This document shows, piece after piece, positions 1,440-7,482 of a DNA stretch of 64,000 nt. Position 1 is the first letter of the stretch. The number at the start of each line of letters is the position of its first letter. The position numbers were made by a program, and so were the translations under genes. The DNA lies in assembly GCF_024138145.1 (NCBI RefSeq), contig NZ_CP099997.1, positions 1,984,001 to 2,048,000 of the forward strand, written 5' to 3'. The DNA comes from Natronosalvus halobius. GTDB lineage: Archaea > Halobacteriota > Halobacteria > Halobacteriales > Natrialbaceae. The notes beneath the pieces were generated by a model that saw only the letters and a list, made by a program, of their open reading frames with translations, was not told the DNA's origin and made no database searches.

Positions 1440-4400
1440 ATGAAGCGACTTCTGTTCGCGTTTCTCGTCGCCGTGATCGTGAGCGGGTTGGTCGTCGGCG
1501 CTTCCGGATTGACGCTCGGGAGCGCTCCGCTCGCTGGTTCAGGAGACGGCGAGACGCAACCCGAATCCTCCGCTGGTGGCGATGCAATCGACGGAACAAG
1601 CGACGTTTCGGAGGACGGTGTCGAACTCGTCGAGTTCGACGAGACGCACTCGAGCGCACGACAGGACGAAGCGACTGCCCAGTCGAAGCGAGAGGCGGCC
1701 GAGGAGGGTGCCGACCGAGGGATCGAACTCGCCCAGGCACAGGGCGTAAACGTCACCCAGGAGCAACGAGAGGCCGCGACGTCCGCCGCCGTCGATGCCG
1801 TCGAACAACATCAGGAGGCGACCGTCGAGCAAGTTCAGCACGCCGCCACGGGTGCGGTTCACGGCGCGTTGCTTCAGCACCAGGCGGTCAACGTTACGCA
1901 GTTGCAGTCGGCCGTGACCGGCAGCGCGGACGGCGCGCTGAGCCAGCACCAATCGGCCAACGTCACGCAGATGCAGAACGCGGCGTGGGGCGGCGCTCAC
2001 GGTGCGCTGGACCAGTACCAGGCGGTGACGGTCGAGCAGATCCAGTACGCGGCTCGCGGGGCCGCCGCAGGCGCCGCACGAGAGGCCGGCGAGAAGGGAG
2101 TCGGTCACGTCGGCGTGATCCAGGAGGCCGCCCAGGGTGCGGCCCACGGGGCGCTCGAGGCCGCGAAGAAGCAGAAGCACCCCTCTCGACAGCACGTCGT
2201 CCAGCGCCAGGAGATAACCGTCGAGCAAATTCAACACGCGGCAGCAGGGGCGGCAGCGGGGGTCGTCGACGGGCACCAGGAACAGCACGTCAGGGTCGAG
2301 CAGCGACAGCACGTGTCGATCAAGCAGATTCAGACGGCTGCGATGGGCGCCGCGAAAGGCGCACTCGTCCAGAAGCAACGGGTCACCGTCGAGCAGACGC
2401 AGGTCGCCGCACGCGGCGCCGCGAAGGGCGTGCTGTCGGTTACGCAAATCCAGAGGGTAGAGATCACGCAGATCCAGGCGGCGGCGACCGGCGCCGCGAC
2501 GGGCGCGATCTACCAGAGCCAGGAGGCGACGGTCGAACAGATCCAGGCGGCGGCGATCGGCGCAGCGAAGGGAACGATTGTCCAGAAACAGGAAATTCAC
2601 GTGACGCAGGTCCAGTACGCCGCTCGCGGCGCCGCGATGGGCGCCGTCGAATCCGCGATCCAGTACCAGGCCGTCACCGTCACGCAGATCCAGGCCGCGT
2701 CGATGGGCGCCGGAAAAGGTGCCGTCGAACAGACGCAGACGGTGCGCGTACAGCAGGTACAGACGATCGCCCGCGGCGCGGCGAAAGGCGTCCTGTCGGT
2801 CGCCCAGGAACAGCGCGTGACGATCCTCCAGATACAGAAGGTGGCCGAAGTAACGTGCCAGTCGGTCTCGGAGACGGTTCAGGACCAGCGAGTCACCGTC
2901 GAGCAAGTTCAGCGGATCAGCGAACGTACCGCCGCGGACACGACCCAGCAGACGGTCGATGATGACCTCGACCGCGAGGTCGACATCCGCGAGCGTGCGG
3001 AGGCGAGCGCGGTCGATAGAACCGCCGAAGAAGAGCCTTCGGAGGGGGAGGCGACGGTGAGCACCGTCGGTCAGACGATCGACGGGGAGACGGTCACGAT
3101 CGACGACGTGACGCTCTCGGAGGGCGGATTCGTCGCCGTCCACGACGGGAGGTGGCTGGAAGGCGAACGCGCCGACAGCGTGATCGGCGTCTCCGAGTAC
3201 CTCGAGCCCGGCGAACACGAATCGGTGACCGTTCCCCTGTTCGAAGACGTTCCCGGTGCCGAGTACGAAGTCGACGCGCTCGAGGCCGGCGAGCACTCGC
3301 TCTTCGTCGTCCCGTATCGCGACGGCGACGACGACCAGGTGTTCGATCGCATCGACACCGACGACGGGGCGGATCCGCCGTACGTCCGGCAGGGTGGCGA
3401 ACCGGTGGTGGCATCGCTCGAGGCGACGGTCGCCGAGGAACGCACCGCCGACCTCGAGGTCGCCGACCAGACCGGGGAGGGTGAAACGGTGACCGTCGAG
3501 CGCGCGACGGCGAACGTCGAATTCTACGTCGAGGCGAGCGACGGCGACCGGGTCGTCCAGAGCGAGGGATTCGGGGCGAACGAGACCGCCGCCAATCTGA
3601 CGCTCGATCTGGACCCGCCGCTCGAGGAGGCTACCGACCTCGAGGTGACGATCCGTGCCGTCGAGGACGGTGAGGGACTCGAGTCGGCGGAGCTCGAGTA
3701 CGACGTCGACGCCGCCGGCGCCGACGAACCGGCGGAGGCGACGGCGAGCCTGAACGTTTCGGACCAGGCCGGCGACGGCGAGACGCTGTCCGTCGATCGG
3801 GCGACCGCGGACGAGGAGTTCGCAGTCGAAGCGCGCTACGACGGCGAGGTGGTACGAACCGACGCTATCGATGCCGACGAGGTCGTCGAGAACCTGACGC
3901 TCGAACTCGATCCGCCCCTCGAGGCGGATGCAGAGGTCGAGATCGCCGTCGTAACGACCGAAGACGACGAGGACCTGGCCGTCGAAGCGATCGAGTACGC
4001 CGTCGATGCGGAACCGGTCGAGCCGACGGCCGATCTCGAGGTGACGGACCAGACCGGCGACGGGGGGACCCTCGCCGTCGAAAACGCCACCGCGACTGTC
4101 GACTTCTTCGTCGATGCTCGTTACGACGATGAGGTGGTGCAAAGCGAATCGTTCGACGCGGACGAGGTCGTCGAGAACCTGACGCTCGAACTCGATCCAC
4201 CCCTCGAGGAGACCAGCGACGTCGAGGTCGCCGTCAGAGCCGACGACGACGATTCGGAACTGACGGGTCAGACGATCGAGTACGCCGTCGAGGCTCCGGT
4301 GGCGTTCCTCAATTGTACCGCGCTCGAGGTCCGGGACGCGGCCGAAATCGATCGCCTCTCGCTACGCGTCTCGTACCTGGAGGGGCCCCTGGCGGGTAAC

Positions 4401-5699
4401 GAGACGGAACTCGAGGAGGAAGTGCTCGCGGAGACGGTCGACGGCCCGATCGAAGACGGGACCGTCCTCTCGACGGCCGATCTGTACCCCTTTAGCGAGT
4501 TCACCCACTACGTCGAGTTCGCGTCCCTCTCCGAAGCCGACGACGAGAACGTCGTCGAGAATCCGCACCCCGCGACCGTCGAGGACTGTCAGGAACTCGG
4601 CTTCGGCGAGCGCCCGACCGCCGACGTCGCGTTCGGCGACCAGGAGACCGACGGGACGAGCGCGACCGTCGACACCGTTTCGCTCTCGGAAGGCGGCTTC
4701 GTCGCCCTCTACGAAGCAGGAGCGCCGATCGAGGACGAGGCCGTCCTCGGCGTCTCCGAGTACCTCGAGCCCGGCGAGCACGAGAACGTCACCGTCGACC
4801 TCGCGGAATCGATCGACGAGGACCGAACGCTCGTCGCGATCGTCCACCGCGATCTGACCGACGACGGCCAGTTTACGTTCGAGAGCGTCGACGAAATCGG
4901 CGTCCACGACGGCCCGTACCTCGACGCGGACGGCGACCCCGTCGCCGACGAGGCCGAACTCACCCTCTCGGCCGAGTTCGCCGTCTCCATCGTCGACGCG
5001 CCGGAAACCGTCGAGCCCGACCAGCCGATCGAACTCGCCGTCGAGGTGGAGAACCGCGGCGCCGGTCCCGGCGAGGCGCCCGTGGTGATCGGCGTCGGTG
5101 CGCAGGAGGCGGTCGTCGAAGAGTCCGTCACGCTTTCACCCGGCGAGACGACGACGCTCACGGTGGCCGTCGACCCGCCGACCGACGCCGTCGGCGAACT
5201 CGAGGTGACAGTTCGCGTCGACGACCCAGACGTGGCTGCGCCCGAGGAGGGAAGCGATTCGGTGACCGTCACCGTCGAGGAGGCCGGCGAACCGGCGTTC
5301 GAGGTGACGGCCCTCGACGCACCCGAAACCGTCGAGGCAGGCGAGTCCATCGAGGTCGCCGCGGAGGTGACGAACGTCGGTGCGGCTCCCGGTGAAGCCG
5401 AAGTGGTGTTCGACATCGACGGCTTCGACGCCGCTACCGATTTCGTCTCGCTCTCTCCCGACGAAACGGCGACGCTCGTCGTCACCGTCGAGACCGGCCC
5501 GGGCGACGTGGGCGACCTCGAGATCGGGGTTCGCACGGCCGATGACCGGACGTCGACGACTGTCGAGGTGATCGAGTCTTCGGATGGAGGCGACCAGCAG
5601 GACGCTCGAGCGGGACCGACGGCTGGGACGGATCCGGCAGTCTCGGCGTCCGCGTACGTACCGAGCTATCTGATCTCGGTCGATCGAGTGGATTCGTAG
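1440..5699 (+). CDS. Giant secreted surface protein with Gln/Ala repeats, DUF7282-like and CARDB-like domains
   Basis: A 1,419-residue protein starting with an apparent Sec signal peptide (MKRLLFAFLVAVIVSGLVVG). Residues ~30-115 are an acidic linker. Residues ~120-500 are about 16 copies of a 22-24-residue unit with the pattern Q-x-Q-x-V-x-V-x-Q-I-Q-x-A-A-x-G-A-A-x-G-A. Next come a domain with EGGFVAVHDG and YLEPGEHESV motifs (~540-665, DUF7282-like), three ~90-residue beta-rich repeats (~667-950), a Cys-containing domain (~950-1055), a second EGGFVALYEA/YLEPGEHENV domain (~1057-1180) and two CARDB-like beta-sandwiches (~1182-1380). No C-terminal transmembrane or PGF-type anchor is visible, so it may be secreted or held non-covalently. 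The function is unknown, and the long frames on the other strand are shadows of its biased codon use. Confidence 0.85.
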   Translation: MKRLLFAFLVAVIVSGLVVGASGLTLGSAPLAGSGDGETQPESSAGGDAIDGTSDVSEDGVELVEFDETHSSARQDEATAQSKREAAEEGADRGIELAQAQGVNVTQEQREAATSAAVDAVEQHQEATVEQVQHAATGAVHGALLQHQAVNVTQLQSAVTGSADGALSQHQSANVTQMQNAAWGGAHGALDQYQAVTVEQIQYAARGAAAGAAREAGEKGVGHVGVIQEAAQGAAHGALEAAKKQKHPSRQHVVQRQEITVEQIQHAAAGAAAGVVDGHQEQHVRVEQRQHVSIKQIQTAAMGAAKGALVQKQRVTVEQTQVAARGAAKGVLSVTQIQRVEITQIQAAATGAATGAIYQSQEATVEQIQAAAIGAAKGTIVQKQEIHVTQVQYAARGAAMGAVESAIQYQAVTVTQIQAASMGAGKGAVEQTQTVRVQQVQTIARGAAKGVLSVAQEQRVTILQIQKVAEVTCQSVSETVQDQRVTVEQVQRISERTAADTTQQTVDDDLDREVDIRERAEASAVDRTAEEEPSEGEATVSTVGQTIDGETVTIDDVTLSEGGFVAVHDGRWLEGERADSVIGVSEYLEPGEHESVTVPLFEDVPGAEYEVDALEAGEHSLFVVPYRDGDDDQVFDRIDTDDGADPPYVRQGGEPVVASLEATVAEERTADLEVADQTGEGETVTVERATANVEFYVEASDGDRVVQSEGFGANETAANLTLDLDPPLEEATDLEVTIRAVEDGEGLESAELEYDVDAAGADEPAEATASLNVSDQAGDGETLSVDRATADEEFAVEARYDGEVVRTDAIDADEVVENLTLELDPPLEADAEVEIAVVTTEDDEDLAVEAIEYAVDAEPVEPTADLEVTDQTGDGGTLAVENATATVDFFVDARYDDEVVQSESFDADEVVENLTLELDPPLEETSDVEVAVRADDDDSELTGQTIEYAVEAPVAFLNCTALEVRDAAEIDRLSLRVSYLEGPLAGNETELEEEVLAETVDGPIEDGTVLSTADLYPFSEFTHYVEFASLSEADDENVVENPHPATVEDCQELGFGERPTADVAFGDQETDGTSATVDTVSLSEGGFVALYEAGAPIEDEAVLGVSEYLEPGEHENVTVDLAESIDEDRTLVAIVHRDLTDDGQFTFESVDEIGVHDGPYLDADGDPVADEAELTLSAEFAVSIVDAPETVEPDQPIELAVEVENRGAGPGEAPVVIGVGAQEAVVEESVTLSPGETTTLTVAVDPPTDAVGELEVTVRVDDPDVAAPEEGSDSVTVTVEEAGEPAFEVTALDAPETVEAGESIEVAAEVTNVGAAPGEAEVVFDIDGFDAATDFVSLSPDETATLVVTVETGPGDVGDLEIGVRTADDRTSTTVEVIESSDGGDQQDARAGPTAGTDPAVSASAYVPSYLISVDRVDS
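1800..2960 (+). repeat. Array of ~23-residue Gln/Ala repeats within the surface protein
   Basis: The coding repeat has a period near 66-72 bp, and the units are divergent in DNA but conserved in protein. Each pairs a beta-like Gln-alternating half (for example QAVTVEQIQ) with a helix- or turn-like AAxGAAxGAL half. DNA divergence together with protein conservation argues for selection on the pattern rather than recent expansion. Confidence 0.8.
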
Positions 5700-6276: not shown

Positions 6277-7482
6277 CTACGCTGGTATGCTCTGCTCACA
6301 GTGAGTCGTGGCGGTGTCACAACCGCTCCCATCCCGAGGCGAGTCATCGCGCTCCGCCTTGTCAAGCGGGACGCTCTCTCCCCACGGGTCAACCCGCCGT
6401 GCGATATTCGCGGAAGCGTTGATGTCGGCCTGAAACGTCGAAACGTGGCAGTCGTCGTGCGGACACCGGAACTCAGCCTGGGAGTCCCGCCGACCGATAC
6501 GGTGGCACGAGTGGCACGTCTTCGAGGTGTACGCCGGGTTCACGTACTCGACCGGGATGCCTGCTTCCGTCGCCTTGTCCTCGATGCGCCCTTGGAGTCG
6601 GGCGAACGCCCACGAGTGAAGCCGACGGTTCATGTACTTCCCGTAGTCGAGACGCTCACGGATGTACGTCAAGTCCTCCATCACCAACACCGGATTCTCG
6701 AACTGTTTGGTGTACTGGACAGCCTGCCGAGACGCTTTCTCCACGATGTCGGTGAATGCGTTCTGGTAGTGCGAGAAGCGGTCGTCGGTACGCCACTCGG
6801 ATGCGTCACGCTCTTGGAGTCGTTTCAGGGTGGTGTGCATCTCTTTGCGGAGATGCTTCGCTCTGCTTCCGCTACACACGAACGGGTCAGTCGGAGAACC
6901 GTCCTTGAGGGCACAGCCCGTGATGAGGGCAGTCTCTCCGATGTCTAAGCCGATGTGCGTGGTGTCACCGTCCGTTGCTGGTTCTTCGACCAGGTACTCG
7001 ACGGTGACATGCAGTACCCAGTTCTTCCGGTGCTTCTGAAGCCGTATCTCGCCCGCTTTCGCGTCCTCCGTTACGAGGGCGTGCCAGAGGTCCTCCTGTT
7101 CGGGATTGATGCGGAGCGGAATCCAAAAGTTCGTTCCCCGACCGGGACGGGGAACCCACCACGTGAATTCGTAGCGACGTTCTTCGGAGCGGTCGAACGT
7201 CGCGGCTTGGTTCGTGAGGCGTATCGGGTGTTCGTCGTCCAATTCTTTCGCGTTGTACGTCTTGTGGAGTTTCGGGACGTAGTTGCAGAGGGCGGCTTTG
7301 GCCTGATACGGCAGGTCGTAGGGCGTCACGATGTCACTCACCGCCGACATGGTACTCGCCCCGGCGTCGAACGCTTCTTGCAGACCGTCACGGTAGGTTT
7401 CGAGCAGGTCGTTCAGTTTCGACTGCTTGTGCGCGGTCGGTGGGGCGAACGTCGCTTGAAGCGTCTTAGTTATCGTCGTCAC
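6277..7482 (-). CDS. tnpB: RNA-guided nuclease TnpB (IS605 OrfB family)
   Basis: A 401-residue TnpB with a GTG start at 7482. All RuvC catalytic positions are visible: Asp in HIGLDIGETALI (~185), Glu in VLVMEDLTYI (~275) and Asp in FQADINASANIA (~358). The zinc ribbon is present between them as CHSC and CPHDDC (~325-350). The N-terminal region contains the WED/REC-type segment with YNAKELDDEHPIRLTNQ. The length is normal for the family and no frameshift is seen, so the nuclease should be functional. Its start overlaps the end of the small upstream ORF by 17 nt, which suggests translational coupling. Confidence 0.92.
   Translation of the reverse strand: MTTITKTLQATFAPPTAHKQSKLNDLLETYRDGLQEAFDAGASTMSAVSDIVTPYDLPYQAKAALCNYVPKLHKTYNAKELDDEHPIRLTNQAATFDRSEERRYEFTWWVPRPGRGTNFWIPLRINPEQEDLWHALVTEDAKAGEIRLQKHRKNWVLHVTVEYLVEEPATDGDTTHIGLDIGETALITGCALKDGSPTDPFVCSGSRAKHLRKEMHTTLKRLQERDASEWRTDDRFSHYQNAFTDIVEKASRQAVQYTKQFENPVLVMEDLTYIRERLDYGKYMNRRLHSWAFARLQGRIEDKATEAGIPVEYVNPAYTSKTCHSCHRIGRRDSQAEFRCPHDDCHVSTFQADINASANIARRVDPWGESVPLDKAERDDSPRDGSGCDTATTHCEQSIPA

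Follow-up and report, generated by a model that had tools for sequence, protein, structure and literature searches.

The 64,000-nucleotide stretch of the Natronosalvus halobius genome analysed here (the window: contig NZ_CP099997.1, positions 1,984,001 to 2,048,000 of the forward strand) carries near its start a gene for a predicted exported protein, more than a quarter of which is an array of a 23-residue repeat rich in Gln, Ala and Gly. The gene and its parts, numbered from the first nucleotide of the window, are the following:

1440..5699, + strand: whole gene, predicted exported repeat protein of 1,419 residues (open reading frame, ORF, with an ATG start; array conserved in Natrialbaceae)
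1440..1511, + strand: predicted N-terminal hydrophobic segment, signal peptide or signal anchor, MKRLLFAFLVAVIVSGLVVGASGL (hydropathy)
1512..1730, + strand: acidic linker and N-terminal segment, residues 25-97 (partly predicted helical)
1731..2984, + strand: array of 16 units of the 23-residue repeat, residues 98-515 (repeat anchors; near-fixed colinear length in the family)
1749..1757, + strand: N-glycosylation sequon NVT, residue 104, unit 1 (Ser/Thr at unit position 9 in 12/12 orthologs with Asn at position 7)
1890..1898, + strand: N-glycosylation sequon NVT, residue 151, unit 3 (the same in 56/56 orthologs)
1959..1967, + strand: N-glycosylation sequon NVT, residue 174, unit 4 (the same in 51/51 orthologs)
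2082..2199, + strand: degenerate unit 6 and linker, about residues 215-253 (unit layout)
3039..4298, + strand: four tandem DUF7282-type segments, starting near residues 534, 668, 767 and 862 (PF23951; starts set from sequence motifs, boundaries approximate)
4620..4964, + strand: fifth DUF7282 domain, residues 1061-1175 (best PF23951 stretch)
4980..5534, + strand: two CARDB-like immunoglobulin-fold domains, residues 1181-1262 and about 1285-1365 (PF07705; second boundary approximate)

Repeat array, charge and sequons

The repeat anchors define 15 regular units and, near residue 229, a degenerate one, spaced mostly by 23 residues (24-26 at some joints), with the consensus xQxQxVxVxQxQxAAxGAAxGAL. 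Gln occupies unit positions 2, 4 and 12 in 98-99% of the units and position 10 in 90%; G17 and G21 are conserved in 92%. Self-identity at a lag of 23 residues was 0.291, compared to 0.107 ± 0.015 in shuffled sequences (z 12.5), and the maximum over all lags from 10 to 60 in 300 shuffles was 0.169. The DNA of the units is divergent: their pairwise identity drops from 0.65 at the first two codon positions to 0.46 at the third, the same residue is encoded by identical codons in only 53% of the cases, and Tandem Repeats Finder recovered no more than a 69-bp unit in 2.4 copies and a single 24-bp array (2.5 copies). The initial annotation, made from the letters alone, had described an ORF with about 16 repeat copies, Gln at alternate positions, and unit DNA that diverges under a constant protein pattern; all of this is borne out, and the array, which it placed at residues 115-500, is real with its bounds corrected to about 98-515.

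The N-terminal hydrophobic segment is the only one above the hydropathy cut-off, both in the window protein and in its orthologs; the standard copies of Natrialbaceae have such a segment at the N-terminus and none at the C-terminus. Both domain types identified by Pfam lie downstream of the array: DUF7282 (207 bits vs a cut-off of 27, E 6.7e-62, five stretches) and, marginally, CARDB (23.7 bits vs a cut-off of 22.7, two stretches).

The protein is acidic outside the array (net charge per residue -0.236, and -0.205 in residues 25-97), whereas the array itself is almost uncharged (-0.017). Among hydrophilic 300-residue segments of other genes in 28 haloarchaeal stretches (the window and 27 loci) only 2.8% lie above -0.03, the median being -0.123. 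The arrays were near-neutral in the 19 relatives checked, the least so (-0.116) being a second, shorter array protein (L124; genome G011, contig 5, ORF from 2062) with a Tat-like signal at its start, whose genome also has a standard copy. A 420-residue domain of almost no net charge inside a hyperacidic exported protein breaks a rule of halophile proteins.

The sequons of units 1-4 are gained and lost as a pair, Asn at position 7 plus Ser/Thr at position 9. Unit 3 orthologs without Asn at 7 nearly always have Glu or Asp paired with Glu at positions 7 and 9; in units 8, 12, 13 and 14, Asn at 7 never has Ser/Thr at 9. This pattern supports export of the protein, with position 7 exposed close to where the array begins; N-glycosylation there is probable. 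The signal-like N-terminus and the sequons agree with the surface-type exported protein proposed at the outset.

Distribution and conservation

The repeat-array gene is a core gene of Natrialbaceae: the array is present in 105 of the 125 genomes of the family, and is missing from all the genomes examined of two genera (g9 and g11), suggesting clade losses. The aligned array stretch of the standard copies spans 462-497 residues within the family, mostly 479, and it is colinear, with 473 of 690 unit comparisons (69%) matching best the unit at the same place of the window protein. Many Gln, Gly and Ala columns are invariant. The array is under purifying selection (ratio of nonsynonymous to synonymous substitution rates, dN/dS, of 0.08-0.19 between close orthologs).

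Arrays of 7-22 detectable units also occur in four other Halobacteriales families and in extra short copies within Natrialbaceae; short copies similar to L124 were found in genomes G050, G658 and G662. One Natrialbaceae protein (L126; genome G039, ORF from 1643, 2,292 residues) joins a shorter array to TSP3 repeats, a hemicentin-type domain and a CAP domain, and ends in a C-terminal anchor; hydrophobic, anchor-like C-terminal segments were also present in four relatives from other families (L111, L120, L121, L127). DUF7282 often co-occurs with the array in relatives, with L122 and L126 as array proteins lacking it. Every array match in a 295-genome sample of the phylum fell within Halobacteriales, and no array was found outside Halobacteria in this one sample and in pattern-limited scans. 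A mobile origin of the gene was rejected: phages and viral contigs gave no match, and the only two plasmids with an array are haloarchaeal, their proteins being annotated as hypothetical. One further relative (L113, genome G198, - strand) has a very regular array whose frame becomes arginine-rich past the last unit and looks like a frameshift.

Searches of Pfam-A, NCBIfam and PDB sequences gave nothing significant for the repeat, so that the early view of a repeat outside any established family holds; sub-threshold Pfam rows (V4R, LysM, SNARE and similar) were discarded as noise. A literature search found no paper naming DUF7282, and nothing on this repeat. The five DUF7282 stretches of the window protein, and the frequent DUF7282 of array relatives, link it to the DUF7282 proteins of haloarchaea, but this domain follows the array and does not cover the repeat itself. 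Glycine-zipper domains share the small-residue helix faces (GxxxG/AxxxA); here, in contrast, the protein is exported and the array long and regular, and Pfam zipper models matched only at noise level (E 4.1 with the consensus; E 0.1 in 1 of 50 members). The repeat is an undescribed family, easily defined by a profile, whose gene belongs to the core of an entire haloarchaeal family; with a structure, databases could put a name to proteins still called hypothetical where the annotation was readable.

Fold of the unit and packing of the array

Two AlphaFold2 runs were made, the first on 475 residues (50 alignment rows) and the second on units 10-16 (59 rows), and because they disagree the evidence of the sequence itself was used for the fold. 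Run 1 is all-helical: it has no strands, and in the regular units a helix covers about positions 8-24 (mean predicted local distance difference test, pLDDT, 72; about 75-96 in units 1-5); its low-confidence stretches lie particularly around units 6-8, the lowest beginning at the degenerate unit 6, and it has a helix from residue 72 on, within the acidic segment of residues 25-97. Position 7 is Ser, Thr, Asp or Asn in 80% of 648 Natrialbaceae units and in 91% of 208 units from distant relatives, and its surroundings (Val/Ile/Ala at 6, Gln at 10, Ile/Val at 11) are capping-box-like; this position looks like a helix N-cap. Proline never occurs at positions 11-20 and is present at 7-9. Conservation at positions 13-24 has a helical period (100 degrees, p 0.02), the variable positions by entropy (9, 13, 16, 20 and 24) form one stripe on the helical wheel with Q12 as sole exception, and the covarying pairs within the unit include 13-16, 15-19 and 16-20. 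On these patterns helix is the better reading of the disputed stretch 8-12, and a helix at positions 8-24 is supported but not proven. The strongest covarying pair within the unit is 7-9; we dropped it as evidence for a strand, as in units 1-4 it stems from the N-glycosylation sequons.

The packing of the units was assessed from their relation to one another along the array. Similarity between units is higher at even lags (p 0.023) and in-register covariation at lags 1-5 is 1.3, 4.1, 1.3, 3.4 and 0.7 (even/odd contrast p 0.009), both p-values being optimistic since the lag-parity statistic was picked after the lag means had been seen; for this reason the packing evidence is suggestive only. 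The strongest antidiagonal between neighbours is 31 (8+23), the centre expected for antiparallel helices (pointwise p 0.014), but loses significance when set against the maximum of all diagonals (p 0.64). An alternating helix direction would be favoured over a parallel solenoid, at this suggestive level, and antiparallel packing of neighbouring helices is weakly supported.

We give even chances to an exported, Gly/Ala-packed helical array serving as a rigid or self-associating surface module. The N-terminal signal or anchor would export the protein, and the 16 units would fold together into one repeat domain of packed helices only. Within a unit, an extended connector (QxQxV, residues 2-6) would be followed by residue 7 as the helix cap and by a single helix of residues 8-24; the faces made by Gly17/Gly21 and Ala14/15/18/22 would allow very close packing of neighbouring helices, probably antiparallel, and the invariant Gln of the connectors and of the first helical turn would probably hydrogen-bond along the array edges. 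The outcome would be a stiff, uncharged domain of fixed length in a hyperacidic protein, probably with N-glycans near its start. From architecture and composition we infer a structural or adhesive role at the surface: the array would most likely be a module, structural or self-associating, by which the DUF7282 and CARDB domains are held or clustered in the cell envelope or extracellular matrix. The stalk displaying beta-sandwich domains of the initial annotation stands as far as beta-sandwich-type domains do lie downstream; the stalk itself is doubtful, as the anchor-like C-termini of several relatives would put the array at the distal end there and, anchoring being possible at either end, the term is not general. 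More tentatively, the array may represent a novel sort of protein repeat: its 23-residue unit would be a single helix with zipper faces of Gly and Ala and with Gln along the edges, and the units would build a rigid rod free of charge, or a surface fibre that assembles itself, in saturated brine, an environment in which the surfaces of proteins are otherwise strongly acidic. How such a charge-free, putatively helical array remains folded and in solution, or assembles, close to salt saturation is what a structure would reveal.

Several results weigh against the helical array, in addition to the limits of the packing statistics given above. The template modelling score predicted for run 1 (pTM) is 0.47; run 2 has strands at positions 2-15, with a mean pLDDT of 45 for which it was kept out of the fold searches; i+4 coupling is absent from stretch 8-13 (9-13 about zero); and the 7-9 covariation, explained by the sequons in units 1-4, persists more weakly elsewhere. 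No operon partner was found at the locus or at the loci of relatives. Fold searches of the run 1 model gave generic helical matches and no convincingly matching solved structure, the lack of a family match in them being no evidence either way: the best structural neighbours were helix-turn-helix designed repeats (the flat repeat 8ugc, Z 8.6 over 268 residues; DHR5, DHR10, DHR18), which differ in their two-helix units and have no sequence relation; the 8ugc match, with a root-mean-square deviation (rmsd) of 7.6, is within chance for helical repeats, its Z included. TAL-effector repeats were the top Foldseek rows by E-value, a generic alternating-helix resemblance with a template modelling score (TM-score) of 0.10-0.15, an rmsd above 22, and another unit length and sequence. 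Finally, conservation at positions 2-12 alternates as in a strand (180-degree periodicity, p 0.001-0.004) and beta-branched residues are preferred at positions 6, 8 and 11. These last two features, with the 100-degree periodicity at 13-24 and Leu at 23, would also fit a beta/alpha solenoid with one unit per coil, in which residues 2-6 (or 2-12) are parallel strands with Gln ladders and residues 13-24 a short helix, like a leucine-rich repeat with Gly/Ala helices. We hold this solenoid to be unlikely given the putative N-cap at position 7, the absence of strands in run 1 and the in-register coupling, which is strong between units two apart (lag 2) but weak between neighbours (lag 1), a two-unit periodicity that fits a parallel one-unit-per-coil solenoid poorly.

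The beta-solenoid or amyloid-like structure first proposed for the array is weakened by this same periodicity, the N-cap signature, the proline pattern and the run 1 helix. The nearest analogue considered is the curlin repeat (PF07012, CsgA), which has a period of 22-23 residues and a VxVxQ-type stretch, and is Gln-rich; the VxVxQ alternation and 23-residue period found here, the uncharged Gln/Ala/Gly composition and the strands of run 2 are in line with it. The Curlin_rpt profile, however, matched nothing up to E 10 in the genome that the window comes from (the E. coli control was matched) and was not among the Pfam matches of the repeat up to E 10, the second half of the unit is Ala/Gly-rich with helical variability, and run 2 is of low confidence; a curlin-like or other beta-solenoid or amyloid fibre is therefore improbable. 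A flexible stalk of low complexity, without stable fold, is suggested by the composition and by the low-confidence stretches of run 1, particularly around units 6-8, but a near-fixed length, invariant columns, low dN/dS and units that match best their positional ortholog are poorly compatible with it, and we consider it improbable as well.

Genomic neighbourhood

The gene is a solitary one: its neighbours in relatives are a divergent transporter ATPase gene on one side and convergent small genes on the other. A tRNA-Ile gene is found upstream of it in the window, as in two close relatives. The final 22 nucleotides of this tRNA-Ile (802-875; repeated part 854-875) recur with one mismatch at 993-1014, 139 bp downstream, and this repeated end beside the gene resembles a leftover attachment site or a partial tRNA copy. 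Just downstream of the repeat gene, an ORF of 401 residues (6277-7482, - strand) looks by eye like an IS200/IS605-type TnpB, with CxxC zinc-finger-like motifs at its C-terminus.

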